A stretch of DNA of 64,000 nucleotides from an uncultured SAR116 cluster alpha proteobacterium (GTDB lineage: Bacteria; Pseudomonadota; Alphaproteobacteria; Puniceispirillales; Marisalimonadaceae): assembly GCA_902590245.1 (NCBI GenBank), contig CACIWG010000008.1, positions 1 to 64,000 of the forward strand. The letters run 5' to 3'. The position numbers and the translations under genes were made by a program. Positions 13,542-39,522 of the stretch are shown piece by piece. The number at the start of each line of letters is the position of its first letter. Within the stretch, counting starts at the first letter, position 1. The notes beneath the pieces are model-generated. The model saw only the letters and a list, made by a program, of their open reading frames with translations. It was not told where the DNA came from and made no database searches.

Positions 13542-13547
13542 CTTTTT

Positions 13548-14006
13548 TTAGGGAAATACTAGAGATATAGTTTCTGCAACAAATGCTGGTTTTTCTTTAC
13601 CATCTATTTCCATTTCATAATTATTAATAACTCTATAACCACCATTTTCCATTAAATTAACTTTTTTAATTTTTCTATGTAAACGTACTTTTGAATTTAC
13701 TTGAACAGGATTAATGAATCTAATTTTATCACTTCCATAATTTATAGTTCTACTTGAATTGTTTATTTTTGATGTTTGAGCCGATAGTACAGGTAATAAA
13801 GATACCATGAAGTAACCATGAGCAATTGTTTTTCCTTCGGGCATTTCTTCTTTTGCTTTTTCAATATCAACATGTATCCATTGAAAATCTCCTGTAGATT
13901 TTGCAAATTCATTTATTTTTTCTTGTGTCACTTCAAACCAATTACTTGGAGTTAATGGTTTATCTACAAAAGTTTCAATTAGTGAAGGGCTATCAATAAT
14001 AATCAT
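13548..14006 (-). CDS. MaoC/NodN-family (R)-specific enoyl-CoA hydratase-like protein
   Basis: I start at ATG 14006, 1 nt after the stop of the upstream gene; a longer frame reaching 14135 overlaps that gene and adds only non-family sequence. The 152-residue product is a single hotdog domain of the NodN/MaoC type. It has the hydratase motif as GDFQWIHVD (Asp and His of D-x-x-x-x-H) followed by IAHGYFMVSLLP, and it ends in EMEIDGKEKPAFVAE. The family hydrates trans-2-enoyl-CoA. It is followed by an MDR reductase, which suggests a short enoyl-CoA processing pair. Confidence 0.87.
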   Translation of the reverse strand: MIIIDSPSLIETFVDKPLTPSNWFEVTQEKINEFAKSTGDFQWIHVDIEKAKEEMPEGKTIAHGYFMVSLLPVLSAQTSKINNSSRTINYGSDKIRFINPVQVNSKVRLHRKIKKVNLMENGGYRVINNYEMEIDGKEKPAFVAETISLVFP

Positions 14007-15437: not shown

Positions 15438-16265
15438 TCATTTAATATTATTTATTGAATTTATTATTGTTTTTTTACCAACTTTTCTTACTAAATCTCT
15501 TTTATAGATCGCTGAAGCATGTTGGTCATCTTCTAAATCTAACGTCCATGCAAAATCATTTAGTAAATCGTCAATAAATTTAAAATCATTCATATCCCAT
15601 TCTATTACTGTGGGTTTAGATGGAATGCCACCAAGTGCAAATCTAATTTTATTATTATCTGATACCACTGCAAATGAAGATATTGCATAATCAGAATATT
15701 TTTCTGACACTTCATCAAATGCATAACCAAAATTATCTTTTCTAACTGGTAATTCTAATTTTATGGCCATTTCATTTGAATTCTTTGAGGTTAGTAGGGG
15801 GCCAAGATAAAAATCATCTGCTGAAATTGATCTATCTCCTTTTTTGCTTTTTAAATGAATTTTACCATTAAGTGCCAAAAAACATAGTGGCAGTTCTGAA
15901 GTAGGGTCACCGTGACAAATTGAACCTATAACTGTACCTCTAGCTCTATGTTGAATGTGCCCTACATACTTAATTGCTTGATCAATTAATGGTAATTTAG
16001 TTTTTAAACTATGCCAATTTTCTAATTCAAGTTGTTTATACAATGGTCCAATTACAATTGTATCTTCTTTTTCCTCAATGGAAATTATATCTTTCAAAAA
16101 ATTTATATCTATTATAATTTCAGGATTTACAATTCTCATGTTCATCATTGAAATTAAAGATTGACCGCCTGCAAGAATTTGAGCTTTGTTACCAAACTCA
16201 TTTAGTATTTGAATGACATCACTAATTGTGAAGCACTTCGTATATTCAAAGTTACACGGTTTCAA
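15438..16265 (-). CDS. CoxM-type FAD subunit of a molybdenum hydroxylase
   Basis: The 275-residue protein is the FAD-binding middle subunit of the xanthine dehydrogenase/CO dehydrogenase family. FAD-binding signatures are AGGQSLISMMNMRIVNPE (residues 37-54) and RARGTVIGSICHGDPTSELP, which is close to the usual T-I-G-G/A motif. The C-terminal CO_deh_flav domain follows. It passes electrons from the iron-sulfur subunit to an acceptor. Its start overlaps the large subunit stop by 4 nt (ATGA), so the two are co-translated. The matching small subunit lies about 7 kb upstream at 23418 in the same direction. Confidence 0.9.
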   Translation of the reverse strand: MKPCNFEYTKCFTISDVIQILNEFGNKAQILAGGQSLISMMNMRIVNPEIIIDINFLKDIISIEEKEDTIVIGPLYKQLELENWHSLKTKLPLIDQAIKYVGHIQHRARGTVIGSICHGDPTSELPLCFLALNGKIHLKSKKGDRSISADDFYLGPLLTSKNSNEMAIKLELPVRKDNFGYAFDEVSEKYSDYAISSFAVVSDNNKIRFALGGIPSKPTVIEWDMNDFKFIDDLLNDFAWTLDLEDDQHASAIYKRDLVRKVGKKTIINSINNIK

Positions 16266-19213: not shown

Positions 19214-19218
19214 AAAAT

Positions 19219-19998
19219 TTAATTACCTTTATAGGAGGGAGGTCTTTTTTCAGAAAAACTTTTTACCCCTTCTTTAAAATCATTTGAACTTCTAAGTCTT
19301 CCATAAGCTTCTCCCTCTAAATCTATAGAAGTATGAAGTGTTGCATTTTGTGTCGCATTTAAAACAGATTTTATTGTTCTCTGAGCTAATGGAGATACAC
19401 CCAGAAGTTCTTTAACAATTTTATTTGTCATATTTTCAAGTTCAGATTTTTCTACAACTTCACAAGCAATACCTAATTGAAAAGCTTCTTCACCAGACAG
19501 TCTTTTTCCACGCATAATTATATTCTTAGTTCTTGAAATTCCAATCATTTTAGCTAATCTTGCTGACCCCCCAGAACCAGGGATCATTCCAATTTTCATT
19601 TCAGGTAATGATAACTGTGAATCTTTTGTAACTATTCTAAAATCACAAGCTAGAGAAAACTCAAACCCAACGCCTAAACAATATCCTTGTATTGCTGCAA
19701 TGACAGGTTTTTTAATTTTTTCAGGTGTCATTACATTTTGTGCTAACATTGATAAGTCCTCAGGCGTCTCTTCAAGGAAGCCAGAAATATTTCCACCTGA
19801 TGAAAAGTTGTCACCATCTGCTCTTAAAACTATAACTCTTATATTTTCATTTTTATCAATTTCATAAAATTGATTTGCCATAACTTTTCTCTGAGAAAAT
19901 AAAACTACATTCAAAGGAGGTCTTGACAAAACTATGTCAGCTCGATGGTTACTTTCATCAATTTCTACTCTAAATCCATCAAATTTTGATATTTCCAC
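19219..19998 (-). CDS. Enoyl-CoA hydratase/isomerase (crotonase family)
   Basis: The 259-residue protein is a full-length crotonase. Both glutamates needed for hydration are present: Glu113 in GVGFEFSLACD and Glu133 in LSLPEMKIGMIPGSGG, spaced 20 residues apart as in rat mitochondrial hydratase. The oxyanion hole segment is FSSGGNISGF. It probably hydrates an enoyl-CoA or dienoyl-CoA product of the surrounding pathway in the cytoplasm. It lies between the HpaB-like monooxygenase (17 nt) and the CoxL-type subunit (5 nt) in one operon, so an aromatic or alicyclic CoA-ester substrate is likely but not shown. Confidence 0.9.
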   Translation of the reverse strand: MEISKFDGFRVEIDESNHRADIVLSRPPLNVVLFSQRKVMANQFYEIDKNENIRVIVLRADGDNFSSGGNISGFLEETPEDLSMLAQNVMTPEKIKKPVIAAIQGYCLGVGFEFSLACDFRIVTKDSQLSLPEMKIGMIPGSGGSARLAKMIGISRTKNIIMRGKRLSGEEAFQLGIACEVVEKSELENMTNKIVKELLGVSPLAQRTIKSVLNATQNATLHTSIDLEGEAYGRLRSSNDFKEGVKSFSEKRPPSYKGN

Positions 19999-20015
19999 AA
20001 TATACCTCTGTAAAA

Positions 20016-21491
20016 CTATTCTGCAGCTTTATTGTGTTTTATAGGTACATCGTATTTACTCATTACTTTATCAACTACTTCTTCAAAATGATCCCAAGGT
20101 GTTTCTCTAAAATTATGATTTCTAATTATAAATGAAGCACCAGCATAAAATTTTTCATATTGAAGTTGTCTACCAGCGAATTCTGAACCAACAACATCCC
20201 AAGCTAATTTAAATAATTTCATTCTATCTAAAGCATTCATTTGAGGTGTTTGGAAATAAGTCTCAAAGTCATTTAATAGTTCATTATTTTTCATGACTTT
20301 AATACTTGCAGGCATTTGAAATACGCCACCACCACATAAAGTTCTTAATTCATCAATAATCATCGAGTAATTATCAGTACAAAAATTTAAGGCTGCATAC
20401 ATAATACGTCTATTAAATGTTTTAAAATTTTTTGGCCAATTTTCAGCATTTTCTATTTGTCCATAAATCATTCCAGAAAGAGTTGATTCTAATGCTGACA
20501 TTTTTCCTAAAGTTTCTCTTACAGCTGGAACTTCATCTGCACCAGTTGCTTTTGCAACTTTATAACAAAGACCAACAATTAATTCCATTTTTGACCAATA
20601 TCTAACGTTAGATTGATGATTTCCATAACAATGTGCGGGAGTTTTAAAATATATTTCTCTTGCTTGTATTGCATCATCTTTTACAAATATTCTTTCCCAA
20701 GGCACCAAAACTTTATCACACATCACAAGAACATCAGTTTCGTCTTGGTTCCAAGATAAAGGTGCATCAAATTGATTATCATAATGATTAGAAAGAGGTT
20801 GTCTCATCCACAAGGATAATCCATTTGAATTACACGGTATCGCACAGGTTATTGATTGTTTTACTTGATCAGGTGCTAAAGGTATTAAATTTCCAATCCA
20901 AATTTCATTTGCAAAGATTGCACTAGTTGCAAGCATTTTCATGCCTGATATAACTACTCCTTTATCATTTTCAGAAACTACAGATAATGTTGGAATTGGC
21001 AAATTTCTTTTTTGATAAAAATCAGGATTTCTTGCCGCTTGAGGGGGGACAACAGCATATGATGCGAATACATCATTTTTTTTCATATATTCATAATAAT
21101 TTAGTAAGTTTTTACTGAATTTATATTTTTCATTATCAAATATATCTGTACTAGTTGACATACCAGTCACAAAACTAGCAACATGATCCATTGATCTTCC
21201 CATCATTCCTGAAGTATGGTCAGCTATAATTTTGTGAGCTTTTGAACGTTTTCTTAAGTCATCTTTGTTTTTGGCTTGTATAAACCATGTTGAAAATGTG
21301 TCTCCATTTTCTTCATAGGTTAGATCGTTTTTATGTTCTTTTGTATGTTTTAAATCATACAATTGAGCAACAGTTTTAGCTGCTCTTTTTAAAGATGGGT
21401 GTTTTGTTACATCGGAGACCTTTTCATCTCCAATATATACTATTCTTCCATCTTGTAATTGCTCTAGATGATCTTTTCCTGTTTTAATCAT
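20016..21491 (-). CDS. HpaB-type (4-hydroxyphenylacetate 3-hydroxylase family) flavin monooxygenase
   Basis: The 491-residue protein shows the family start (QLQDGRIVYIGDEKVSDVT then HPSLKRAAKTVAQLYDL), GMMGRSMDHVASFV near residue 100 and the flavin-binding core with VMCDKVLVPWERIFV. The [4Fe-4S] cysteines of the related 4-hydroxybutyryl-CoA dehydratase are missing in the GRSMDH region, so a two-component FADH2-dependent monooxygenase is the better call. No HpaC-type reductase sits beside it; the flavin reductase at 58618 is a possible but distant partner. Its ATG overlaps the cupin stop (TAATG). Confidence 0.85.
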   Translation of the reverse strand: MIKTGKDHLEQLQDGRIVYIGDEKVSDVTKHPSLKRAAKTVAQLYDLKHTKEHKNDLTYEENGDTFSTWFIQAKNKDDLRKRSKAHKIIADHTSGMMGRSMDHVASFVTGMSTSTDIFDNEKYKFSKNLLNYYEYMKKNDVFASYAVVPPQAARNPDFYQKRNLPIPTLSVVSENDKGVVISGMKMLATSAIFANEIWIGNLIPLAPDQVKQSITCAIPCNSNGLSLWMRQPLSNHYDNQFDAPLSWNQDETDVLVMCDKVLVPWERIFVKDDAIQAREIYFKTPAHCYGNHQSNVRYWSKMELIVGLCYKVAKATGADEVPAVRETLGKMSALESTLSGMIYGQIENAENWPKNFKTFNRRIMYAALNFCTDNYSMIIDELRTLCGGGVFQMPASIKVMKNNELLNDFETYFQTPQMNALDRMKLFKLAWDVVGSEFAGRQLQYEKFYAGASFIIRNHNFRETPWDHFEEVVDKVMSKYDVPIKHNKAAE

Positions 21492-21877
21492 TAAAAATCC
21501 TCATCAGTTTTATAATAATGTAATTCAAATAAAGTACAGCCTTTTTCAGATTTAAACGGCCCATGATATACTCCAGGGGGCCTGCAAGCATAAGTTGCTG
21601 TATTGAATGAGTTTCCGCCATTGCCGTTTTTATCGTTACCAACAATTAAGTCTCCAGAAACTAAAAAAACTTCTTCCCAATGATCATGTACAAATGGTTC
21701 TTTTGTATAAACACCAGGATCAAATCTCAGTAACCTTGATCTGCTTCCTGTTTTAGTATTTTCGTTAATATCAGAAGCTAAGATTTTTTGTTTAATTCCT
21801 TTTGGATATCCTAAAGGTGTTTCCCAACCATTTTCATCAGATACCATTTCAAATTCAATGTGAGGTTTTCTATTCAT
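21491..21877 (-). CDS. Cupin-domain protein
   Basis: The 128-residue protein is a single cupin barrel. Cupin motif 1 is visible as FVHDHWEEVFLVSGDLIVG, and motif 2 as CRPPGVYHGPF followed by GCTLFELHYYK. The two histidines and the glutamate of motif 1 could hold a metal, as in ChrR-like cupins and small ring-cleaving dioxygenases or isomerases. It is translationally coupled to the HpaB-type monooxygenase and preceded by an acyl-CoA ligase. A role in opening or rearranging the hydroxylated ring is possible but not shown. Confidence 0.8.
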   Translation of the reverse strand: MNRKPHIEFEMVSDENGWETPLGYPKGIKQKILASDINENTKTGSRSRLLRFDPGVYTKEPFVHDHWEEVFLVSGDLIVGNDKNGNGGNSFNTATYACRPPGVYHGPFKSEKGCTLFELHYYKTDEDF

Positions 21878-21901
21878 ATTAAGAGTATTATATTTTTGAA
21901 T

Positions 21902-23425
21902 TTAATTGTCTAGTTCATATTCGCCAGATAGAATTTTTCTTCTTAAAATTTTACCTGTAGGAGATTTTGGTATCTCTTTTATAAAAACATAATCTTTTGG
22001 TCTTTTAAAATTAGATAAATCTGAATTTTTACAAAATTCATCTAATTCATTAAAATTAATTTTTTTATTACTTTTGATAAAAGCAGTAACTTTTTGGCCC
22101 CACTTTGCATCTTTAAGTCCAACAATTACCACTTCATTAACGTCAGGATGTAGTGAAATTACATTCTCTATTTCTATTGGAAACACATTTTCACCACCAG
22201 TAATAATCATATCATCAACTCTTCCAGTTACGTGCAGATCACCATTTTCATCAAAGTATCCCGTATCTTTAGTAAAATACCAGTCATCAATAATTGAACT
22301 TTTGTCAGCATCAGGTCTTTCTAAATAACCTTCAAAAGCTTCATCATTTTTTATATATGCTATAATTTCACCTTCTTCATTTATTTTTGTTTTAGAATTT
22401 ATATTTTTAGAATTTATATTAACAACTCTTATATTTTGGTTTATTCCTGCCTTTCCTGCAGATCCAGGTTTGTTTAATGCGTTAGGTTCTATTGTAAAGG
22501 TATAAATTTCAGAAGAGCCATAATGATTTATTAATTGAGAAACTGAAAAGCTTTGCTTTATTTTTTTTATTAACCCGTCTGTCATTGGTGCTCCAGCAAA
22601 TCCTAGCTTATGACATGTCAACAATTTTTCTTTTTTAAAGTAGGGGGAATTTATCAAATCGTGATAAAGCGTAGGGACTAAATATAAAGATGAAATTTTA
22701 TTTTTATTTATTAACTCTATAGCTTCTTGAGTATTATATTTAGGTTGAGCAACAAAGTTACCATTTACTAATGTCATAGATAATAAAGATCTTACACCCA
22801 TTGTATGATATAAGGGCATTACACCTAAAGTAGATTCATATCTTTCATATCTATTTTGTGCGATGTGAGCTATCGCAGAACTTCTTTCTGCAAAATGAGA
22901 TCTTGGAACACCTTTTGGTTGGCCGGTAGTACCTGAGGTATATAGAATAATTGAACAATCTTTATAATGAGCTTCGGATGAAACAAATATTTTTTTCAAG
23001 TTAATTAAATTTTTAAAATTTTCATATTTTGAAATTTGTGAGGATATTGAAATTTTAATAATAGAATTTGATAAATTAGATAAATTTATTTCTTTTTCAG
23101 AAAAGTCATCAAATATAATACATTTTGATTTTGAATTTTTTAAAAAAAAAATTATTTCTTCAGATTTTACTCTCCAATTGATTGGAACTATTACAATTCC
23201 AATTAGTTGACATGCCCAGTGAATTGTACAAGCCTCAAAAGTATTTGGTAAAAGGGTCATTAACCTATCACCTTTTCTTAGCCCCATTTTTTTTAACGAG
23301 ATCGCTAAACTTGAAATTTTATTTAACCAATTTGAATAATTGAGATGTTTGTTTTGATACGTTATTGCTATAGCTTCAGGACAACGATCAACTGATGATA
23401 AAAAAGTTGTACCTAAATCAATCAT
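21902..23425 (-). CDS. AMP-forming acyl-CoA ligase, probably aromatic or carboxylic acid specific
   Basis: The 507-residue ANL-superfamily enzyme has the P-loop YTSGTTGQPKGVPRSH (162-177), the adenylate motif NHYGSSEIYTF, a TGYFDENGDLHVTGRVDD hinge and the catalytic lysine Lys492 in SPTGKILRR. It activates a carboxylate as acyl-AMP and transfers it to CoA. Its start overlaps the CoxS-type gene stop by 8 nt, and it precedes the cupin and the HpaB-type monooxygenase. The imported carboxylate is therefore probably handled as a CoA thioester. The exact acid cannot be read from the sequence. Confidence 0.88.
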   Translation of the reverse strand: MIDLGTTFLSSVDRCPEAIAITYQNKHLNYSNWLNKISSLAISLKKMGLRKGDRLMTLLPNTFEACTIHWACQLIGIVIVPINWRVKSEEIIFFLKNSKSKCIIFDDFSEKEINLSNLSNSIIKISISSQISKYENFKNLINLKKIFVSSEAHYKDCSIILYTSGTTGQPKGVPRSHFAERSSAIAHIAQNRYERYESTLGVMPLYHTMGVRSLLSMTLVNGNFVAQPKYNTQEAIELINKNKISSLYLVPTLYHDLINSPYFKKEKLLTCHKLGFAGAPMTDGLIKKIKQSFSVSQLINHYGSSEIYTFTIEPNALNKPGSAGKAGINQNIRVVNINSKNINSKTKINEEGEIIAYIKNDEAFEGYLERPDADKSSIIDDWYFTKDTGYFDENGDLHVTGRVDDMIITGGENVFPIEIENVISLHPDVNEVVIVGLKDAKWGQKVTAFIKSNKKINFNELDEFCKNSDLSNFKRPKDYVFIKEIPKSPTGKILRRKILSGEYELDN

Positions 23426-23924
23426 TTTTTGATTTTTTGAACCTATTTAAAAACACTTCTTCAACTGCTTTGACTATGCCAGTATAACCGGTACATCTAC
23501 AAATATTACCACTTAATTTTTCTCTTATTTCTTCTTCTTTTAGAAATTGTTTCTTTTCTAAAAGGTAGACTATAGTTGTTATAAAGCCAGGTGTACAATA
23601 GCCACATTGAAGGGCATGATATTTTTTAAATGCCTCTCTTAAATCATCATAAGAACTGTTTTCTGATATACCTTCAATAGTGGTTATTTCACCATTGTCT
23701 ATTTGAGGGGCTAGCATTAAACAAGATCTTACAGGTTCGTTATTAAACAATATTGTACATGCTCCACAAATACCATGTTCACATCCAACATGAGTGCCGG
23801 TCATGCCACAATCAAATCTCAAAAAATCACTTAAAAGTTGTCTAGGTTTTACTTGTTTTTGAATTAATTCATTATTGAGTTTGAAACTTATTTTTAACCT
23901 ATTGTCATCATTATAGATTCTCAT
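23418..23924 (-). CDS. CoxS-type [2Fe-2S] subunit of a molybdenum hydroxylase
   Basis: The 168-residue protein carries both [2Fe-2S] clusters of the family: plant-type ferredoxin cysteines 48, 53, 56 and 68 (GCEHGICGAC) and the C-terminal helical cluster cysteines 107, 110, 142 and 144 (QCGYCTPG and CRCTGY). It moves electrons from the molybdenum centre to the FAD subunit. No other unfused small subunit is present in the window, so it should pair with the CoxL/CoxM-type genes at 16262 and 15438 even though six kilobases of other genes lie between them. Confidence 0.9.
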   Translation of the reverse strand: MRIYNDDNRLKISFKLNNELIQKQVKPRQLLSDFLRFDCGMTGTHVGCEHGICGACTILFNNEPVRSCLMLAPQIDNGEITTIEGISENSSYDDLREAFKKYHALQCGYCTPGFITTIVYLLEKKQFLKEEEIREKLSGNICRCTGYTGIVKAVEEVFLNRFKKSKND

Positions 23925-28691: not shown

Positions 28692-29840
28692 TTATTTTTC
28701 AATAAATTTAGAAACTAAAAAACCAAGCAAAAGTCCCCAAAATGGGGCACCAATATTAAATAAGCTAAATTCAGATAATGTAACCAAAAATGTTAATAAT
28801 GCGCTCAATGCATATTTGCTTTTGAAAGAATCAACAAATGATTGTTGTAAAACATTTAAAAGTGCAAGTCCTCCAAGGGTTATAATAAATTCTTTAGGCA
28901 ATTCTTGAAGTAAATTTAAAACAAAAGGAGAATATAAACCAAATACTATGCATAAAAATGAAAATAATATTGCAGAAATATATTGATTTTGGGTATTGGG
29001 GTTACTCGTTAATATACCAGTTACAGGGCCTGTTAAACAAGTTGATACAGCACCTAAATAAGCATTAAAAAATGAACCTAATCCACAATAGTATGTAATT
29101 TGATTTAAGGGTGGAGTATATTTTTTGTTTTCAAGTAAGACTATTCCTTGTCCATTTTGAATGAAAATAACTGTTATTATTAATGGTATAGTTAATTCTA
29201 TGATTGGTTTTAAATTAAATTCAGGCATTGTTAAATAAATATTAATTAAACTTACTTCTTTAGTAGAAATATTAATATTGTTTGTAAAATACATGACTAA
29301 TAGTCCTGATATCAAACATCCTAATAGAGGAGGTATAGTTTTAATCTTCTTAGATAAAAATAACAAAATGAAAAATGTTAAACTCATTATGCTTGCAAGC
29401 ATCGGATAAGTGTTTAGAGAGTTTATCCAATCAACACAGAAACTCAAAAAAATAGCTGAAACCATTCCCATAACAATTTCTGTTGGTATATTTTTTTTTA
29501 AAAAATTAATTATGTTAGTAAAACTAATTAAAAAAAGTAAGAAACTTGAGGTTAAGTAAACCCCTACAATTTCGTTTAATGAATAATTTTTTAGTGAATA
29601 ACCAATTAAGATCATTCCTGGTATGCTCCACATCAAAACAAGAGGTTGTTTGTTTTTAAACGTAAGTATTATACTAAAAAATCCATTTACAGCAAAGCAA
29701 CCAAAAAGCCATATAGACACATCTCTTGGGTCAATATTATTTGCAGATGTAATTGAGAGCATAATTGCAACTGGACCAGAGATTGCAAAAAGAAAAGCAA
29801 TAAAACTATCAACAAAATTATTTATAATTGAATTGTTCAT
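28692..29840 (-). CDS. BenE-type benzoate/proton symporter family permease
   Basis: The 382-residue protein is almost wholly hydrophobic with about eleven or twelve membrane helices. Family features are FAISGPVAIMLSITSAN near the start, PLVLMWSIPGMILIGYSLKN (helix 3 region), NIPTEIVMGMVSAIFLSFC and YLGAVSTCLTGPVTGILTS. These correspond to the wstPGaal, iPxxia and NlGavt blocks of BenE. The family imports benzoate with protons; here the substrate may be the related heteroaromatic acid. It follows UPF0280 by 12 nt in the molybdenum hydroxylase/reductase operon. Confidence 0.8.
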   Translation of the reverse strand: MNNSIINNFVDSFIAFLFAISGPVAIMLSITSANNIDPRDVSIWLFGCFAVNGFFSIILTFKNKQPLVLMWSIPGMILIGYSLKNYSLNEIVGVYLTSSFLLFLISFTNIINFLKKNIPTEIVMGMVSAIFLSFCVDWINSLNTYPMLASIMSLTFFILLFLSKKIKTIPPLLGCLISGLLVMYFTNNINISTKEVSLINIYLTMPEFNLKPIIELTIPLIITVIFIQNGQGIVLLENKKYTPPLNQITYYCGLGSFFNAYLGAVSTCLTGPVTGILTSNPNTQNQYISAILFSFLCIVFGLYSPFVLNLLQELPKEFIITLGGLALLNVLQQSFVDSFKSKYALSALLTFLVTLSEFSLFNIGAPFWGLLLGFLVSKFIEK

Positions 29841-29852
29841 ATCAATTTTATT

Positions 29853-30695
29853 TCAAACCTCTAATATTTTAATTTTTTTATTAAACTTAATATTAAATTT
29901 ATGTCCTAAAATTAATATTTTGTCTTGAAGGTTAATTATAACTGATTTTATTAAATTTTTACTAATATAATGTTCAGAAATATTTTTCCCTTTTGATATA
30001 GCTTGTCTTATTTCAGTTTCCGTTAAATTTTCAACAGATACAGTTATTAATTTATTATTAAGATCAGTATCTTCGTATAGATTGTTAGCAAATGTTTTTT
30101 TTACCTTATTTGAATTTTTAAGGTCTATATGATTACCGATTATTGTCGCAGCGGCATCTGCTACTGAAGCTTTTTCGGCTATTACTGTGACGCTATCAGC
30201 TATTCCCATTGAAAAGCTTCTTCCTTTCCATCCAGATGTAGCAATTCCTCCAAAACCATCAATACCTGTATATTCAATAACACAACTTGTTTCGCCACCA
30301 ATGCTAAAATTAAACTTTTCATTTTTAGAAATATATAAAGAAATGTCTCCACCATTATTTATATAAATTTTTTTTACTTTAAATTTTTCTAAAACTTTCA
30401 ACAAAAGCAACTCAGATATAGATCCTGCAACTGATGCCATTGGTGTGACAAAATTAGGTAAAAATAATTTAGTAGATTCAAACATTGTATTTGCTATATC
30501 ACTTACGAATTTATTTTTTTGAGAAGTTGGTTTTTTTAGCTTTTCAATTTCAAGACTTAAATCTTTTAAAAATTTTGATGAATATTCAAAAATAAGATTA
30601 TAAATTTCTTTTTTTTCTGAAGAAAAGGCCTCAGCTATAATATTTGTAGGACCATTTTCAATAAATAATTTATCATCTTCAATTAATGATTTCAT
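29853..30695 (-). CDS. UPF0280 family protein (ApbE superfamily)
   Basis: The 280-residue protein matches the UPF0280/COG2122 family: DDKLFIENGPTNIIAEAF at the start, FVTPMASVAGSISELLL and YINNGGDISLYISKNEKFN in the middle (residues about 84-125), then GGIATSGWKGRSFSMGIADS with ASVADAAATIIGNHID. The last two blocks mirror the T-S-G/D-A-A-T segments of ApbE flavin transferases. The family has no established function. Its ATG overlaps the 6-hydroxynicotinate reductase-like stop (TAATG), so it probably serves that enzyme, for example in flavin attachment (inference). Confidence 0.82.
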   Translation of the reverse strand: MKSLIEDDKLFIENGPTNIIAEAFSSEKKEIYNLIFEYSSKFLKDLSLEIEKLKKPTSQKNKFVSDIANTMFESTKLFLPNFVTPMASVAGSISELLLLKVLEKFKVKKIYINNGGDISLYISKNEKFNFSIGGETSCVIEYTGIDGFGGIATSGWKGRSFSMGIADSVTVIAEKASVADAAATIIGNHIDLKNSNKVKKTFANNLYEDTDLNNKLITVSVENLTETEIRQAISKGKNISEHYISKNLIKSVIINLQDKILILGHKFNIKFNKKIKILEV

Positions 30696-32134
30696 TAATC
30701 ATCTTCTAAAACTTTCTTATCTCTACCGTATTCGCCACCATTTAAAAAAATATCTTTTATGGTTCTAATGTCATCTACATGACCGCCAAGATTTTGATAG
30801 TTTTCTTTTGTTAATGTGAATTCTAACGGTGCTACAATTGCAGGTGTTGGGACATAACCAAATGCGTTTTCTGGCATATCAAGAACATTCACCATAAATG
30901 TAATGCCTCCTCCAGGCCATATGTATGGAGTGGCACCACCTGAAGTTAGTTCAGTTTTCTTGTTTTGTATTGATTTTGTCAGTTTAACAGGATTTTTTGT
31001 GACACCTGATCTTAATGACCCTCCTGCGCCTCCAACAAATAAAACAGTGCATAAAGCTGGTTCACAATTTTCTTCTATTAATTTAACAGTATCAACTAGT
31101 TTTTTAGGGAATGGCTGTTTTTGTGGAATTAATTTTTCGTCTAATATGTAGTATGAGTATTCTTCACCAGTTGTAGATACCATCAAAAGAGACAATCCAG
31201 GTTTTGCACCTTTTTTTTCATTCCAACTTTTTAGTATTGTTAGAGGATCTGTAATGTCAGTACCTCCCCAACCTGAACCAGGATTAGCAACTTGAAAATA
31301 TCTTCCTGGAGTGGATCGACGACCGTTAATAGAGATTCCAGTACTTTCCCAACCTAATACTTTTCCAGCTTGATGTTCAGAAACAACTGCAGTTATATGA
31401 TCATCAACTATAACAACTTCATCAACTAATCCTCTCCATTGAGATGCAAACATTCCAACTGTAGCAGAACCGCAACCCACTCTCATTTTATTTTCTTTAA
31501 CATCATTGATAATTGGAGGTTTTCCGGCTTGGACAATTATTTTTGAACCATTATCAATCGTCAATTCAACGGCCTCTTTATTACAAAGGTTCATAATAAC
31601 TTCACATGTCATTTTACCTTCAATTTTGGAACTGCCTGTTAAATGATCTACGCCTCCAAGTGACATCATTTGGGATCCGTATTCACTTGTCATAACGTGA
31701 CCAACGGCTTCACCATTATATCTAACAATGTCTCTTTCAGATCCAATATGTCGATCCGTATCTACCTTAATTTTGACACCACAATACGAAAATATTGCTT
31801 CCGTAACAATTGTCACAAAATCAATATCATCAATTTTTCTATTAAATATAAAAGGTGCTGGCTTGTAATCAGGATATGTGGTTCCAGAGCCAATAGCAGT
31901 AATAAAAATATCTTTATCTGGAATTATTTCCCCATCCCAATCTTCATTTAAAAATGGTTTGATTTTCATTCCATTTTCAATACATCTATTCAAAATTACT
32001 AAAGGATCCAATCTTATGATTTGGCCATTTTTATTTGCATATCTGTCACAAGCTCCAGATTTTCCTTCAGCTATGTAACACATCACAGGACATGCATCAC
32101 ATCGTATTTTTTCAACTTTATTTATTTGATCCAT
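30695..32134 (-). CDS. 6-hydroxynicotinate reductase-like iron-sulfur protein
   Basis: The 479-residue protein starts with a cysteine cluster Cys12, Cys15, Cys19 and Cys29 (RCDACPVMC then GACDRY), suited to a [4Fe-4S] cluster. It continues through conserved blocks VGCGSATVGMFASQW, GRRSTPGRYFQVANPG, ENCEPALCTVLFVGGAGG and YIWPGGGITFMV. I recognise this as the family annotated 6-hydroxynicotinate reductase, which reduces 6-hydroxynicotinate to 1,4,5,6-tetrahydro-6-oxonicotinate with ferredoxin. The characterised Eubacterium enzyme holds iron-sulfur and covalent flavin. A TSGGAT segment (397-402) resembles flavinylation motifs. It overlaps the molybdenum hydroxylase end by 17 nt. Confidence 0.78.
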   Translation of the reverse strand: MDQINKVEKIRCDACPVMCYIAEGKSGACDRYANKNGQIIRLDPLVILNRCIENGMKIKPFLNEDWDGEIIPDKDIFITAIGSGTTYPDYKPAPFIFNRKIDDIDFVTIVTEAIFSYCGVKIKVDTDRHIGSERDIVRYNGEAVGHVMTSEYGSQMMSLGGVDHLTGSSKIEGKMTCEVIMNLCNKEAVELTIDNGSKIIVQAGKPPIINDVKENKMRVGCGSATVGMFASQWRGLVDEVVIVDDHITAVVSEHQAGKVLGWESTGISINGRRSTPGRYFQVANPGSGWGGTDITDPLTILKSWNEKKGAKPGLSLLMVSTTGEEYSYYILDEKLIPQKQPFPKKLVDTVKLIEENCEPALCTVLFVGGAGGSLRSGVTKNPVKLTKSIQNKKTELTSGGATPYIWPGGGITFMVNVLDMPENAFGYVPTPAIVAPLEFTLTKENYQNLGGHVDDIRTIKDIFLNGGEYGRDKKVLEDD

Positions 32135-34871
32135 TTTTACTAATCTCTAATGCTTCTAAAATTCTATCTGGTAGCGCAGGTAGTTTTGTTATTATCGCTC
32201 CAGTAGCATTTCGAAGTGCATTCATTATTGCAGGTGCCGTTGGGATTAAAACATGTTCACCAAGGCCCCTTGCTCCAAAAGGTCCTTCTGGATCGTTTTT
32301 CTCTATTAATATTGATTCAATTTCAGGAACATCTCCAATAGATGGAATTAAATAATCATGAAGATTTTCAGTTTTTGAAGGAATATACTCTTCCATTAAA
32401 GCAAAGCCTATCCCTTGTGCAATTCCTCCTTCAATTTGGCCCTCAGCAAGAAGTGGGTTTATTGTTTTTCCAAGATCATGTGCAGCTGTTATTTTGTCAA
32501 TTTTTAATAAGCCAAGTTCAGTATCTACTGTAATTTCTGCCATCTGAGCTCCATATCCATAAATTGCATACGGTATTCCTTGCCCATTCTCATCTAAAGA
32601 TGTAGTTGGTGGGTCATATGTTTCTTCAGCAATTAGAACATAATCATTTTCAATTAATTGAAGTTTAGTTAAATCAATTTTTTGTCTCTTATCTTGATTG
32701 GAAATTATAAGTTCATTTTTTTCAATTTTAATTAAAGAGTCGTTTCCCATGTTGCTAAGTCTAAGTATTTCAGATCTAAGTTTAAACCCTGCATTGTACG
32801 CAGCTTTTCCAGTTACATAAGTTTGTCTAGAAGCTGAGGTTTTGCCACAATCAGGGGATAAAAATGTATCAGGGCTAACTAGGTTTATATTTTCAATGGA
32901 CACACCAATTGCATCCGCTGTAATTTGTGCGATGACCGTATTTGAACCTTGTCCAATATCTGTTGCCCCTTGATGTAAAGAGATTCTGCCATTATTAGTT
33001 AATCCAATTTTAATTGTTGAGGGGTTAGGAAGGGCAGTGTTACCACAACCATACCAACAAGTAGCAATGCCAACACCTTTTTTATATCTTTTGGAGGTTT
33101 TGTTAAAAGTAATGTAACCTTCTTTTTTTTGGATCCAATTATCTTTTAAGGCTTCTAAACAATCAATAATTCCAACCGAATCTAATTTTTGACCACAAAC
33201 AGTTTTATCTCCATCTTTTAATGAATTCTTTAATCTGAATTCTAATTGATCAATCTGAAGTTTGTCGGCGAGTTGATCCATTAATGTTTCTTGCAATGCT
33301 GTTGCTTGTGGAACACCAAATCCACGAAATGCTCCAGCAACAGGGCCATTGGTATGAATTGCTCTTCCAACAGCTTTATAATTTGGAACTTTATATGGTC
33401 CACTTGCATGAACTGGAACACGGTTAGCAACTGTAGGTCCCCAGCTTGCATAAGCACCAGTATTAAAATCTCCAGAGAAGTTGATTGAATTTAAAAAACC
33501 TTTACTATCACATGAAATTGAAGAACTCATCAATCCAGGATGTCTTTTTGTTGTTGATATCATGGATTCATTTCGAGAATATACAATTCTACAGGGTTTT
33601 TTTGTTTTTAAGGCTACTAGGCCAAGATAAGGTTGAATTGATATATCTAGTTTTGACCCAAATCCACCGCCAGTTGCAGAAGGTATTATTCTGATATTAT
33701 CTGGCTCAATATCTAATATTTTAGCAGTATCATCTCTATCCATATAGGGGGCTTGAGTACAGGCTTGTATAACTAAAACATTTTTCTCCATCCAAGCTGA
33801 CCCCGCTTCAGGTTCAATGTACGCATGTTCAACATAAGAAGTTTCTAAAATTCCATTTACTTTAAATTCAGTAGAAACATTTTTTTCAGGATTTCCAGTG
33901 AAAACCTTTCCAAAAGTTAAAATATTATTTTTTAAGTTTTCATTTCCAATTTTAACTTTAGTGTTTAAGGAGTCGTCAATTGTCATTACATCATCATCTT
34001 TTTTCCAGGTGATAGGAAAAGTATCCAGATTTAAATTTTTAATACTATCATATGAACCAGCTATAATTGCTACAGCCTCTCCACGAAAATTGACTTTCTT
34101 TTTTGCTAAGACTGGTTGGTCAGCAAATGGTGGAATAACACCAAAAATATTTTTCCCTGGTATATCTTTTTCTGTTACAACTATCTCGATCCCATGGTTT
34201 TTTTCGATCCAGTCTTTATAATTACCAATTGTAAATGATGCTCTGTTAAATGGAGATCTTAAGACTTTAACTAGCAAAGAATTTTCTGGTGAAAAATCAT
34301 CTCCAAATATTTCAGTGCCATCTAACTTTTTTTCACCATCAATTCTTTCAATTCTTTTCCCAACCTCTTTCATGTTATTGGAAGAAGTATTTTTATTTTC
34401 TGTAATTTTATTAGCATTCATTACTGCGTTGATAATTTTTTGATATCCAGTACATCTACATAAAACTCCAGAGAGAGCAAATTCCACTTCTTCTTTTTTT
34501 GGAAATTTATTTTTTCTAAGGAGCGCTAGAGCAGACATGATTATTCCAGGGGTACATATCCCACACTGAGCGGCACCATGAATTGATAAAGATTTTTTTA
34601 AAAGAATAAATTGTTTATCTTCACTAACTCCCTCGATAGTTTCAATTTTTTTATTTTTGACTTTCCCTAAAGTTAAAAGACAAGAGCAAAAAGGATTATC
34701 ATCCATTAAGATAGTGCAGGAACCGCAATCACCAGCATTACAACCAACTTTTGTCCCTTTAATTTTCTGGCTTTCCCTTAAAAATTCACTCAGTCTGACA
34801 TTTAAATTTTCAATAGATGAAATTTTTTTTTTGTTTAATGTAAATTTTATAGTTTCTTTGTGAAAATTCAT
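32118..34871 (-). CDS. Molybdenum hydroxylase with fused [2Fe-2S] and molybdopterin subunits (nicotinate dehydrogenase-like)
   Basis: The 917-residue protein joins a small subunit to a large one. Residues 1-160 hold both [2Fe-2S] clusters (Cys44, 49, 52, 64, then QCGICTPG and CRCTGY). From about 175 on it is a molybdopterin domain with PVAGAFRGFGVPQATALQE and the catalytic glutamate in FGARGLGEHVL near the C-terminus. These enzymes hydroxylate carbon next to N in heteroaromatic rings using water. Its neighbours, a FAD subunit overlapping by 4 nt and a 6-hydroxynicotinate reductase-like gene, make nicotinate or a similar pyridine/azine carboxylate the likely substrate class. Confidence 0.88.
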   Translation of the reverse strand: MNFHKETIKFTLNKKKISSIENLNVRLSEFLRESQKIKGTKVGCNAGDCGSCTILMDDNPFCSCLLTLGKVKNKKIETIEGVSEDKQFILLKKSLSIHGAAQCGICTPGIIMSALALLRKNKFPKKEEVEFALSGVLCRCTGYQKIINAVMNANKITENKNTSSNNMKEVGKRIERIDGEKKLDGTEIFGDDFSPENSLLVKVLRSPFNRASFTIGNYKDWIEKNHGIEIVVTEKDIPGKNIFGVIPPFADQPVLAKKKVNFRGEAVAIIAGSYDSIKNLNLDTFPITWKKDDDVMTIDDSLNTKVKIGNENLKNNILTFGKVFTGNPEKNVSTEFKVNGILETSYVEHAYIEPEAGSAWMEKNVLVIQACTQAPYMDRDDTAKILDIEPDNIRIIPSATGGGFGSKLDISIQPYLGLVALKTKKPCRIVYSRNESMISTTKRHPGLMSSSISCDSKGFLNSINFSGDFNTGAYASWGPTVANRVPVHASGPYKVPNYKAVGRAIHTNGPVAGAFRGFGVPQATALQETLMDQLADKLQIDQLEFRLKNSLKDGDKTVCGQKLDSVGIIDCLEALKDNWIQKKEGYITFNKTSKRYKKGVGIATCWYGCGNTALPNPSTIKIGLTNNGRISLHQGATDIGQGSNTVIAQITADAIGVSIENINLVSPDTFLSPDCGKTSASRQTYVTGKAAYNAGFKLRSEILRLSNMGNDSLIKIEKNELIISNQDKRQKIDLTKLQLIENDYVLIAEETYDPPTTSLDENGQGIPYAIYGYGAQMAEITVDTELGLLKIDKITAAHDLGKTINPLLAEGQIEGGIAQGIGFALMEEYIPSKTENLHDYLIPSIGDVPEIESILIEKNDPEGPFGARGLGEHVLIPTAPAIMNALRNATGAIITKLPALPDRILEALEISKNGSNK

Positions 34872-35719
34872 CTTGCAATCTCTTGTTTATTGATAGCATC
34901 TTTAACAACATCTTTTATTAATAATTGAGATGCTTTTAATCTATAAACGTGTGTTGATCTTATGTCGGTAATAGGTGAAATTTCGTTTAACTGACTAAAA
35001 TCAACTTGATTAAAAATATCTTCATTTATGTCTTTTTTAATTAATTGACGTTCTATTGAAAAAATTCTTTTTGCTACCTCACTACATGACCCAACACTAA
35101 TAGAAATATCTTCTATAATGTTATTTGAAATAAGTATACGACAAGCTACCATGGAAATTGATATTACAAGATATTTTCTAGCCCCAATTTTTCTAAAAGA
35201 TGAGCTTCCATTTTCTTTTTCTTTTGGAATTATTATTGAAGTTAATATTTCACCCTGTTCCAGTTTCGTTTTTCTGGAACCCAATATAAATTCATCTATA
35301 GGAATAATTCTTTGATTATTTGCAGATGATAATTCTAACTTTGCATCTAAGGCAAGCAAGCACGGTATGCTATCAGCAGCTGGGGACGCATTACAAATAT
35401 TACCACCAATTGTCCCTAAGTTTTGAATTTGTATTGAACCAACTTCCTTGGCACATGCTTTTAACATGTCATAACAACTGGGCAAATTTTCATTTATTAT
35501 ATCTGTCCAAGTTGTAGCAGAGCCAATTTTAGTTTCTTTACTATTAAACTGAAAACCTTTGATAGACTTGATATTAGTTATGTCCAATATATTTTTATCT
35601 AAAGACATGTTATTTGTTATTGGAAATAAATCAGTACACCCTGCAGCAATTGTTAAGTCACTGTTGTTTTGTAATACATCAAGAGCAGAGTTCAAGTCAT
35701 TTGGTTGAAAATAATTCAT
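34868..35719 (-). CDS. FAD subunit of the second molybdenum hydroxylase
   Basis: The 283-residue CoxM/XdhB-like protein has the FAD-binding sequences TIAAGCTDLFPITNN (residues 23-37) and LGTIGGNICNASPAADSIP, followed by a C-terminal CO_deh_flav domain (FRKIGARKYLVISISMVACR). It is the first gene of a long minus-strand operon and overlaps the fused Fe-S/Mo subunit by 4 nt (ATGA). It is divergent from hyuA with 79 nt between the starts, an interval that should contain both promoters. Confidence 0.9.
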   Translation of the reverse strand: MNYFQPNDLNSALDVLQNNSDLTIAAGCTDLFPITNNMSLDKNILDITNIKSIKGFQFNSKETKIGSATTWTDIINENLPSCYDMLKACAKEVGSIQIQNLGTIGGNICNASPAADSIPCLLALDAKLELSSANNQRIIPIDEFILGSRKTKLEQGEILTSIIIPKEKENGSSSFRKIGARKYLVISISMVACRILISNNIIEDISISVGSCSEVAKRIFSIERQLIKKDINEDIFNQVDFSQLNEISPITDIRSTHVYRLKASQLLIKDVVKDAINKQEIAR

Positions 35720-35798
35720 TATTGATTTTGCAAATTTTAAATTTTAATCATATTGTAAATTCTTATTTTATCATTAATCAAGTAATTTGTTACATATT

Positions 35799-37835
35799 AT
35801 GGCCCAGATAAAAGATAATTTAGTTGGAATTGATGTAGGGGGAACTTTTACTGATTTAATTTGTTTTGATTCTAAATCAAAAAGTTATAATTTTACAAAA
35901 GTTTTTACATCTGCAAAAAATCAATCACAGGGTGTTTTGAATGCAATTGATAAAGCTTCAATTAATTTAAAAAAGCAAGACCTTATAATTCATGGAACAA
36001 CTACTACTACAAACGCTTTACTTGAAAGAAAAATTTCAAAAACAGCCTTAATAACTACAAAAGGTTTTAGAGATGTTCTTGAGTTAGGTAGAAGAACAAG
36101 ACCTTTCCCTTATGGATTGATAGCACATTTTAAACCACTAATCCCTAGAAACTTAAGATTTGAAGTAGAAGAGAGAATTGATTTTAAAGGCAATGTTTTA
36201 AAGAAACTTAATGAAAGTGAATTATTAAAAATCTTAAAAAAAATAAAAGAATTAAATTGTGAATCCATAGTGATTCATTTTTTACATTCATATGCCAACT
36301 CTTATCATGAAGTAAAAGCAAAAAATTTAATTTTAAAAAATTGGACTAATAAGTATGTTACAGCAGGTTATGAAATACTCTCAGAAAGCAGAGAATTTGA
36401 AAGAGGTGTAACAGCTTCGATTAATGCTTCAGTTCAACCCATACTTGAAAATTATATTTACGATTTACAACAAAGACTTAGAAACAATGGTTACAAAAAA
36501 GAACTTCTAGTAATGAATGGTAATGGGGGAACTGTTTCTTCAAAAATTGTTTCAAAAGAAGCTGCAAAGACAGTAATGTCAGGTCCAGCTTCAGGAGTAA
36601 TAGCAGCAACATATGTGAGCAAATTATCAAAAGTTAAAAATATAATAACCTATGACATGGGTGGAACATCTACTGATGTGTCACTTGTTGTAAACAACAA
36701 GCCAGCAGTATCTTCTGAGACTGAAATTGAATATAGTATGCCTGTTCACGTTCCTATGGTTGATGTAAGAACAATAGGTGCAGGAGGGGGGTCAATCGCT
36801 AAGATTAATGAAGCTGGTTTACTTGAAGTTGGTCCTGAAAGTTCTGGATCTGATCCAGGTCCAATATGTTATGGAAATGGAGGAAAAAATCCTACTATAT
36901 CAGATGCAAATTTTTTACTTGGAAGACTAAATCCAGAATCTTTAAATATAAAAGAAAATATTAAAATTAAAGAAGATACAAAATCAATTTTAGAGAATGA
37001 AATTTCTAAAAAATTAAAACTGAATAATTACCAATCTGCAGAAGCAATTCTTAAAATAGCAAATAATAAAATGGCAAATGCCATTCGTATGGTTTCAATA
37101 TCTGTTGGAGAGGACCCAAGAGAATTTAATCTTTTTTCTTTTGGTGGAGCTGGCCCAATGCATGCTTGTGAATTAGCAAGAGAATTAGATATTCCAAAGG
37201 TTTTTATACCTGCCAGGCCTGGACTGACAAATGCTCTTGGTTGTTTAGTAGCTGATTTGAGACAAGATTTTACACAAACACTTAATATTTCCTTGGAAGA
37301 AACTAATATAAAAAACTTACACTCTATACTAGAAAAATTTAAAAGTGACGGTGTTTCATTAATAAAAAAACAAAAAGTTGAAATTGAAAAATTTTATATA
37401 GAGTTCAGCTTAGATATGCAATTTTTAGGACAAACTCATATTATTAAAATTCCTCTTAAAGATGCAAAACCTTCTAAAAATTTTATCAATAAGGAGTTTG
37501 AAAATATTTATTTTAAGAGATTTAAAGTAAAGTTAGAAAAAATTTTACCAATTATTGTCAATATAAATGTATCAGTCATTGGCAAAAGAAAGGAACTGGA
37601 CTTAAAAAAATTAATTAACTTTACCAAGAGTGAAAAAATTTCTTACAGAAAAGTTTATTTCAATGGAAAGTGGCACAGGACACCGATTTATTTAAGAGAA
37701 AATTTATTCCCTAAATTTAAACAAAATGGACCTGCAATTATTGAACAATTAGATACAACAATTGTAATACACCCCAAGGACAATTTTTTTGTAGATGATT
37801 TTGGGAACATTATTATTGAGATATATAATGATTAA
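35799..37835 (+). CDS. hyuA: Hydantoinase/oxoprolinase family protein, HyuA-like subunit
   Basis: I use ATG 35799 (MAQIKDNLVGIDVGG) rather than an in-frame TTG at 35787. The 678-residue protein carries the ASKHA ATP-binding motifs: phosphate 1 GIDVGGTFTDLI (residues 9-20), phosphate 2 YDMGGTSTDVSLV, and GAGGGSIAKINEAG. HyuA with HyuB hydrolyses the amide of cyclic imides or lactams (hydantoins, 5-oxoproline) in an ATP-dependent way, or carboxylates ketones in a variant branch. It overlaps hyuB by 8 nt. Facing the reductase operon, it could open a lactam made from a reduced heteroaromatic ring. Confidence 0.9.
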   Translation: MAQIKDNLVGIDVGGTFTDLICFDSKSKSYNFTKVFTSAKNQSQGVLNAIDKASINLKKQDLIIHGTTTTTNALLERKISKTALITTKGFRDVLELGRRTRPFPYGLIAHFKPLIPRNLRFEVEERIDFKGNVLKKLNESELLKILKKIKELNCESIVIHFLHSYANSYHEVKAKNLILKNWTNKYVTAGYEILSESREFERGVTASINASVQPILENYIYDLQQRLRNNGYKKELLVMNGNGGTVSSKIVSKEAAKTVMSGPASGVIAATYVSKLSKVKNIITYDMGGTSTDVSLVVNNKPAVSSETEIEYSMPVHVPMVDVRTIGAGGGSIAKINEAGLLEVGPESSGSDPGPICYGNGGKNPTISDANFLLGRLNPESLNIKENIKIKEDTKSILENEISKKLKLNNYQSAEAILKIANNKMANAIRMVSISVGEDPREFNLFSFGGAGPMHACELARELDIPKVFIPARPGLTNALGCLVADLRQDFTQTLNISLEETNIKNLHSILEKFKSDGVSLIKKQKVEIEKFYIEFSLDMQFLGQTHIIKIPLKDAKPSKNFINKEFENIYFKRFKVKLEKILPIIVNINVSVIGKRKELDLKKLINFTKSEKISYRKVYFNGKWHRTPIYLRENLFPKFKQNGPAIIEQLDTTIVIHPKDNFFVDDFGNIIIEIYND

Positions 37836-39522
37836 AGTTGATAAAATTACATTAGGTGTAATTCAAGCTGGTTTACAACAAGTTTGTGATGAAATGGATC
37901 TCTCTTTTTCACGTTCTGCTTTTTCTCCTGTGATATCAGAAGCAAATGACAGGTCAAATGGAATTTATTCTGCAATTAATGGAAGCTTGATTTCGCAGGG
38001 GTATAATGGTTTACCGGTCTTTGTTGGTACAATGGAGTATTCTACTTCTGAAATAATCAGACTTATCAAAGAAGAAAAAGTAGAAAAACCAGATCCTGGT
38101 GATATTTACATAGTAAATGATCCTTATTTGGGTGGCACTCATTTAATGGACGTAAGGTTTGCAAAACCATATTTCAGAAATAAAAAAATATGTTTTTGGT
38201 TGTCAAATACTGGACATTGGCCTGATATTGGCGGGAGTGTCCCTGGAGGTTTTTCTGCTTCTGCTAATTCAGTAGAACAAGAAGGATTAAGATTACCACC
38301 TGTAAAATTATTTAAAAAAGGTGTTTTAGATAAAGAGATTTACTCAATTATTTGTTCAAATATTAGGATATCTGAACAAAGGATAGGTGATGTAAAAGCA
38401 CAAGAGGCCGCATTACTGGTTGGAGAAGAAAGATTAAATCATCTATTTAATAAATTTGGTGATGAACTTATTCATAATTCCATAGAGGAACTAAGAAAAA
38501 GTGGCTCAAATCAAATGAAATCATTTATAAATCAAATTCCAAATGGCATTTATAAATCTAAAGCTTACGTTGATAGTGATGGCATTAAAAATGTCCCTTT
38601 AGAAATAAATCTTGAGGTAAAAAAACAAAAAGATAAACTTATTTTTGACCTTTCTAAATCTTCCCTACCATGCATTGGTCCTATGAACTCAGTGTTCGCT
38701 ACGACAAAAAGTTCAATATACTTGGCAATGAGACATATATTTCCTGAAGTTGCTATAAATGGTGGTGCTTTTGAACCTTTAGAAATAAAAAGGCCTTCAG
38801 GAACATTTTTAGATGCAGTTTATCCTAGGCCAGTTTCTGGCTGTGCTGCAGAAGTTTCACAAAGAATTGCTGAAGCAGTTTTTTTAGCTTTTGTTAATGT
38901 CCTAAAGAATAGGGTTACAGCTGCTCCTGCAGGAACTAGTGGGAATTTTGCTTTAGGTGGATTTAATGATCTGAAAGGTAGTAATTTTGTTATGTATCAA
39001 TTATCTGGAGGAGGATATGGAGGTAATTCTTTGAATGATGGCATATCAAATGGATGTTCAACAATTGGTATTTCTAAAGCACCTCCAGTTGAAATAATGG
39101 AACAAAAATTTCCAGTTTTATATAATCATTATTCACTTCATGATAAATCTTCTGGTGCAGGAGAATTCAGAGGTGGATTTGGACTAGATTATGAAATAGA
39201 AATTTTATGCAAAGAGGCAACAGCAAGTTTTGTGATGGATCATGGGCGATTTGGTCCCCCAGGTGTATTGGGTGGAGCTGATGGTGGTAAAAATAAAGTA
39301 AAAATAAAAAGAAAAAATAAAAAAGATTATGTGCCTGAACATTTGTCTAAGGAACAAGATATAAGATTAAAAAAAGGTGATAAAGTTCAAGTTCAAACTC
39401 CTGGTGGGGGAGGTTTTGGAAATCCAAAGAAAAGAAAAAAACATTTAATTATTAATGATATATTAGAAGAAAAACTTTCACATAAAGATGCATTAAAAAT
39501 ATATGGAAAAAAAATTATTTGA
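37828..39522 (+). CDS. hyuB: Hydantoinase/oxoprolinase family protein, HyuB-like subunit
   Basis: The start is ATG 37828 (MIKVDKITLGVIQAGLQQVC), overlapping the hyuA end; an upstream ATG at 37795 lies inside hyuA. The 564-residue protein has the HyuB landmarks VNDPYLGGTHLMDVRF, TGHWPDIGGSVPGGFS, a metal-binding segment near EGLRLPP, and the C-terminal TPGGGGFGNP. It forms the amide-hydrolysing partner of HyuA. The C-terminal tail after residue 500 is very lysine-rich (KKRKKH), which may reflect AT-rich drift. Confidence 0.9.
   Translation: MIKVDKITLGVIQAGLQQVCDEMDLSFSRSAFSPVISEANDRSNGIYSAINGSLISQGYNGLPVFVGTMEYSTSEIIRLIKEEKVEKPDPGDIYIVNDPYLGGTHLMDVRFAKPYFRNKKICFWLSNTGHWPDIGGSVPGGFSASANSVEQEGLRLPPVKLFKKGVLDKEIYSIICSNIRISEQRIGDVKAQEAALLVGEERLNHLFNKFGDELIHNSIEELRKSGSNQMKSFINQIPNGIYKSKAYVDSDGIKNVPLEINLEVKKQKDKLIFDLSKSSLPCIGPMNSVFATTKSSIYLAMRHIFPEVAINGGAFEPLEIKRPSGTFLDAVYPRPVSGCAAEVSQRIAEAVFLAFVNVLKNRVTAAPAGTSGNFALGGFNDLKGSNFVMYQLSGGGYGGNSLNDGISNGCSTIGISKAPPVEIMEQKFPVLYNHYSLHDKSSGAGEFRGGFGLDYEIEILCKEATASFVMDHGRFGPPGVLGGADGGKNKVKIKRKNKKDYVPEHLSKEQDIRLKKGDKVQVQTPGGGGFGNPKKRKKHLIINDILEEKLSHKDALKIYGKKII

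Follow-up and report, generated by a model that had tools for sequence, protein, structure and literature searches.

Organisation of the locus

The window, a stretch of 64,000 nucleotides from an uncultured SAR116 alphaproteobacterium, carries on its minus strand an operon of four overlapping genes. These code for the FAD-binding subunit and the fused [2Fe-2S]/molybdopterin subunit of an XDH-family enzyme, followed by the 6-hydroxynicotinate-reductase-like protein Hnr and, at the end, by UPF0280.

34868..35719, minus strand: XDH-family FAD-binding subunit, overlapping the next gene by 4 bases
32118..34871, minus strand: XDH-family fused [2Fe-2S]/molybdopterin subunit, overlapping hnr by 17 bases
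30695..32134, minus strand: Hnr, 479 residues
29853..30695, minus strand: UPF0280 (COG2122, DUF375) protein, 280 residues, predicted ApbE-type double T-fold
28692..29840, minus strand: BenE-type transporter, directly after UPF0280

Both the Hnr and the UPF0280 reading frames were found where an earlier sequence-only reading of this DNA had placed them, sharing a single base: the stop codon TAA of Hnr ends in the A with which the UPF0280 start codon begins (TAATG). The fused [2Fe-2S]/molybdopterin subunit probably belongs to a nicotinate-type hydroxylase. The transporter is kept at this position only in near SAR116 relatives (loci L046, L047 and L048). The nearest named relative, as judged from Hnr (98% identity), is also an uncultured SAR116 alphaproteobacterium.

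Hnr itself gave no match in Pfam or NCBIfam. Its homologues in plasmid records are annotated as '6-hydroxynicotinate reductase'. A proteobacterial relative is 42% identical to the 6-hydroxynicotinate reductase (EC 1.3.7.1) of Eubacterium barkeri, and the homologues of Azorhizobium and Bradyrhizobium relatives lie within nicotinate clusters, for which conversion of 6-hydroxynicotinate to THON has been described (PMC3511419).

Two further sets of genes were observed in the window. At 35787-39522, a divergent hydantoinase A/B pair was detected, whose top NCBIfam matches are the caprolactamase alpha and beta subunits, far under the cut-off; these proteins could open the lactam ring produced by Hnr. 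An A-like gene was present in 17 and a B-like gene in 13 of 52 full-length loci. A second catabolic set follows ABC transporter genes at 16262-23924 and comprises a molybdenum hydroxylase large subunit fused to CoxG, a separate [2Fe-2S] gene, an HpaB-type monooxygenase, an enoyl-CoA hydratase and an acyl-CoA ligase.

Pairing of Hnr and UPF0280 across genomes

The sequence-only reading had suggested checking whether both families occur together, and the outcome was positive in both directions. Using family profiles of both proteins, Hnr was identified in 77 out of 387 alphaproteobacterial genomes (44 genera), and strong UPF0280 matches were obtained in the same 77. In a sample of 299 Proteobacteria genomes, in which each protein was searched, Hnr was found in 21 and UPF0280 in exactly those 21. 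The two alphaproteobacterial genes reside on one contig and one strand in 76 of the 77 genomes, with a gap of at most 203 bases in 75 and of 1,570 bases in one more, while the 77th genome has them on two separate contigs. The odds of such a coincidence arising by chance are about 1e-82 if genomes are taken as independent and about 1e-50 if counted by genera; kinship makes both values too extreme, but the pattern is seen in many families.

The same picture was obtained from 80 loci of named genomes, where UPF0280 adjoins Hnr in 78, that is in 78 of the 79 informative ones. One exception is a contig that ends too soon, the other a MAG contig (L056) devoid of UPF0280. The genes overlap in 52 of the 78 measured pairs and are at most 30 bases apart in 74. 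All 26 plasmid records with Hnr also contain UPF0280, and the one further record, with UPF0280 but no Hnr, is a Hydrogenophaga plasmid (NZ_CP044550.1), with IS1071 directly upstream of the copy examined. XDH genes accompany the pair in 51 of 52 full-length loci. On a betaproteobacterial plasmid of the Comamonadaceae (L150), Hnr and UPF0280 are still together, although the XDH genes have moved away. The pairing of the two genes is far beyond chance, and UPF0280 is almost certainly an obligate partner of Hnr.

Weak UPF0280 matches without Hnr were obtained in four further alphaproteobacterial genomes, all of them partial. One (G337) turned out to be a short-chain dehydrogenase. Two others (G366 and G467) correspond to a divergent protein lacking the NNGGD and ADxxxT motifs, and a weak match of the same kind was obtained in G663, which belongs to the same genus; the first three were rejected as orphan copies. 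In loci L152 (5982-6776) and L153 (6033-6848), from one alphaproteobacterial genus, a divergent UPF0280-like protein without GGD and ADxxxT is encoded close to an old-yellow-enzyme gene, flanked by a protein of 900 residues and a methyltransferase.

Predicted fold and conserved residues of UPF0280

UPF0280 of the window matched the PRK04334/UPF0280 profile NF003322 over residues 3-267 (E 3.8e-69) with 233 bits, below the curated cut-off of 290. It gave no Pfam match, so the cut-off of PF02424 was not reached; one relative matched PF02424 at E 7.6e-4, under the cut-off. In the PDB, its sequence has a single relative, 2O34 (DVU1097, DUF375; phmmer E 1.8e-6). The structural model (pLDDT 93.7) superposed on DVU1097 with a VIA Z of 21.4 (212 residues, 2.9 A), on Ftp of Treponema with a Z of 18.5 (215 residues) and on FAD-bound FmnB with a Z of 17.3. 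ApbE proteins overall scored between 15.6 and 18.5 over about 200-218 of the 280 residues, and the next T-fold enzymes scored far lower (urate oxidase, Z 8.5). A profile alignment of UPF0280 with ApbE using hhalign gave an E value of 1.7e-6. According to the model, UPF0280 has the whole ApbE double T-fold, and the fold match to Ftp bears out its earlier assignment to the ApbE superfamily. Price et al. remarked that the ApbE homology of COG2122 seems not to extend to the flavin-binding region (PMC5764234).

The residues of 73 UPF0280 homologues were compared with those of 20 ApbE sequences and with published ligands (PMC4767422, PMC12052999); the equivalences given here derive from the sequence-profile alignment and not from distances in coordinates. 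The relevant codons are located as follows.

30345..30353, minus strand: G115-G116-D117 (NNGGD motif, common to ApbE)
30204..30239, minus strand: T153-S154-G155..G158-R159-S160..G164
30144..30158, minus strand: D180 to T184 (ADAAAT motif)

D180 and T184 are invariant in the 73 homologues and align with the ligands of metal site 1 in ApbE, D280 and T284 of the E. coli protein (PMC4767422). Like ApbE, Ftp and FmnB (PF02424; 4XDR, 7ESA, 6NXI), UPF0280 thus displays GGD, the TSG serine (as S154) and the ADxxxT metal ligands. In contrast, the catalytic general-base His with the HxxDPxTG loop (His257 in V. cholerae), a His present in 19 of the 20 ApbE sequences, is deleted in the alignment, and an invariant GRSxSxGIAD stretch stands in its place. 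The position of the site-2 Glu, which is Lys in most of the ApbE sampled, is an invariant Ala (A90). No lipoprotein signal is apparent in the UPF0280 sequence. Inspection of the ApbE metal and FAD residues, as proposed in the sequence-only reading, therefore gave a divided answer, with Asp and Thr of metal site 1 kept and the His loop and site-2 Glu/Lys lost. Column identity averages 45%, yet the metal-site Asp and Thr, GGD, TSG and GRSxSxG vary hardly or not at all, which suggests that the active site of UPF0280 has been kept. None of the Cys residues is conserved in proteobacterial UPF0280, and 8 of the 73 homologues have no Cys at all.

Cysteines and candidate flavin sites of Hnr

Three elements of Hnr were considered.

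32048..32101, minus strand: N-terminal Cys motif C12-x2-C15-x3-C19-x9-C29, invariant
31460..31477, minus strand: GCGSAT, residues 220-225
30929..30946, minus strand: TSGGAT, residues 397-402

The four cysteines of the N-terminal motif are probable Fe-S ligands. Overall, 8 Cys are invariant in all 79 sequences and 2 are nearly so. The E. barkeri enzyme reportedly contains one [2Fe-2S] and two [4Fe-4S] clusters, for whose 12 thiolate ligands the 9-10 or so conserved Cys of Hnr are too few. It is also said to hold a covalent flavin. No demonstration of covalent flavin on a proteobacterial Hnr was found in the literature.

GCGSAT and TSGGAT are both present at the positions given by the sequence-only reading, which had considered them close to a flavinylation motif and named Thr225 and Thr402 as possible attachment sites. 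As flavinylation motifs they carry little weight: when Hnr is shuffled, [GS]A[ST] triples arise 0.40 times per copy on average, and 5% of the shuffles have at least two. The strict ApbE motif D-x-x-[S/T]-G-A-[S/T] occurs in none of the 79 Hnr sequences. The two threonines did not hold up either. Position 402 is Pro in 57 sequences, Glu in 13 and Thr in 3. Position 225 is Thr in 75 sequences and Ala in 4 (L091, L099, L102 and L103), all of which keep UPF0280, while C221 and S223 are invariant. A flavin, if attached to Hnr, thus sits elsewhere. Another protein of the window operon was considered as target and rejected, as the strict motif is found in none of the 8 other proteins of the region.

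The model of Hnr (pLDDT 75) gave no outstanding fold match in the PDB except for a weak resemblance of residues 115-206 to the C-terminal barrel of GcvT (PF08669 in 9 of 10 members, best E 0.0047; model Z 5.0 to 1WOO). No PF01837 (DUF39) match was obtained among ten members. A distant relationship to DUF39 was also considered: hhalign aligned a DUF39 stretch, confirmed as PF01837 by Pfam (E 2.2e-81), to residues 361-402 of Hnr, but equally high scores came from 47 of 190 shuffles and from 18 of 99 decoys, and the idea was dropped.

Canonical ApbE and DUF39 in genomes with the pair

Among 20 near-complete genomes that contain both genes, canonical ApbE was detected in 11 and not in the other 9. 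Eight of these nine have no PF02424 match, and the sole match of the ninth (G159), under the cut-off, is its own UPF0280. UPF0280 is therefore the only detected ApbE-superfamily protein in many such organisms. The genome of the window, 75% complete, likewise gave no canonical ApbE. It should be kept in mind that some covalent flavins form without any transferase.

The sequence-only reading had regarded UPF0280 as an unassigned family. This is accurate in so far as no biochemical role has been agreed upon, but in Desulfovibrio COG2122 is known to be needed for making homocysteine, along with DUF39 and a NIL/ferredoxin protein; methionine rescues the mutants, and their fitness correlates with that of DUF39 (r = 0.98; PMC5764234). 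MA1715 of Methanosarcina has been described as a sulfur trafficking protein (PMC12068725). By sequence and fold, these proteins (DVU1097, 2O34; MA1715) and proteobacterial UPF0280 form one family, but the partner differs. DUF39 (PF01837) was found in none of the 299 Proteobacteria genomes and in none of 61 close relatives, whereas control genomes were positive, so UPF0280 serves something else in Proteobacteria, where it accompanies Hnr. A Cys-rich C-terminus noted in a methanogen COG2122 is also missing from proteobacterial UPF0280.

Proposed function of UPF0280

The attachment of UPF0280 to one specific redox enzyme is the thread common to the Hnr and DUF39 partnerships. As both partners use different substrates, a function in making the partner work fits UPF0280 better than a step in the pathway, and a role in the maturation of Hnr is considered probable. 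Flavin attachment is the leading chemistry because the metal ligands of the nucleotide site are kept and a covalent flavin is reported for E. barkeri Hnr. The missing general base means that UPF0280 cannot simply be called an ApbE.

UPF0280 may well be a dedicated maturation partner of Hnr, acting most likely by an altered ApbE-type flavin attachment at a non-consensus site; this reading is put forward tentatively, and flavin transfer taken by itself is possible rather than likely. In the nicotinate-type catabolic operon, the XDH-family hydroxylase would produce a 6-hydroxy compound, the ring of which would then be reduced by Hnr. For the altered reaction, UPF0280 would rely on metal site 1 and on a fold like that of ApbE. 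Hnr would receive FMN taken from FAD, or a different nucleotide-linked group, at a position outside the ApbE consensus. We infer the action of UPF0280 on Hnr as such, flavin as the group and the site of attachment. The dedicated transferase of the sequence-only reading is retained here as far as the partnership, the ApbE fold, metal site 1 and the 9 of 20 genomes without ApbE are concerned, and both sites named for it are abandoned.

A sulfur-handling or Fe-S maturation partner, delivering sulfide or persulfide to the Fe-S clusters or to Cys221 of Hnr, would follow what has been proposed for COG2122 with DUF39 and SepCysS. The Desulfovibrio genetics (PMC5764234), the sulfur trafficking ascribed to MA1715 (PMC12068725) and the many conserved cysteines of Hnr are consistent with it. 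However, having no conserved Cys, UPF0280 cannot itself carry a persulfide, and with the methanogen-type C-terminal Cys cluster missing and DUF39 absent from the Proteobacteria sample, this function appears unlikely.

Urate oxidase and other T-fold enzymes bind heterocycles, and the operon neighbours of UPF0280 are catabolic, so an enzyme that converts what Hnr consumes or produces, by isomerisation or lactam hydrolysis, was also considered. The much stronger structural matches to ApbE make this improbable, as do COG2122 and DUF39 of Desulfovibrio and methanogens, which involve no such heterocycle (PMC5764234), and the hydantoinase A genes of the window and of about one third of the full-length loci, often joined by B, whose products could do the opening of the lactam.

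An ApbE-derived protein that is no longer an enzyme and serves as a subunit or chaperone in a complex with Hnr would be compatible with the missing ApbE base and site-2 ligand, and with the translational overlap in most pairs; this is distinctly improbable in view of the near-invariant metal-site Asp/Thr, GGD, TSG and GRSxSxG. A canonical ApbE-type transfer onto Thr402 or Thr225, suggested by the fold and by the SAT and GAT tripeptides of the window Hnr, is hardly credible with Thr402 already largely refuted, Thr225 replaced in loci that keep UPF0280, and the upstream Asp and S/T-G of the motif missing in Hnr.

If UPF0280 attaches flavin, as in the maturation function preferred here, the ApbE superfamily would contain a flavin transferase other than ApbE itself, and the part that COG2122 plays in making homocysteine could be seen in a new light. 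A broader proposal, that UPF0280/COG2122 proteins transfer flavin (or nucleotide) as a class of their own beside ApbE, with an unlike catalytic apparatus and each copy serving one ferredoxin-linked enzyme, is regarded as somewhat unlikely; if true, one chemistry would cover the partnerships with Hnr in Proteobacteria and with DUF39 in sulfate reducers and methanogens. Some eighty Alphaproteobacteria in which UPF0280 and one reductase are strictly paired in both directions, with DUF39 absent, offer a clean system for finding the chemistry of UPF0280, consisting of two genes, a coloured cofactor and cultivable hosts.

Additional observations on individual loci

An AA_synth gene (PF06684) follows UPF0280 in many loci, at times as two copies in tandem (for example L112, 12266-12946; L149, 16254-16835; L150, 16458-17722), and is absent at this place in the window. 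On plasmid L150, a ferredoxin-NADP-reductase-type gene (12893-13666) lies next to the pair, divergent from Hnr, and is a candidate for the electron donor system. The Hydrogenophaga plasmid NZ_CP044550.1 (L146) gave four UPF0280 matches; in the stretch examined, a unit is present in two near-identical copies, and IS1071 lies in between and again after the second. In a one-contig genome (G016 contig 1, 2969814-2971237; L021/L022), Hnr appears as two overlapping reading frames with the break at residue 236/237, which is either a frameshift or a true fission. A single internal TGA was observed in one UPF0280 gene (G346 contig 1, 765541-766422) and in one Hnr gene (G671 contig 1, 17465-18868).
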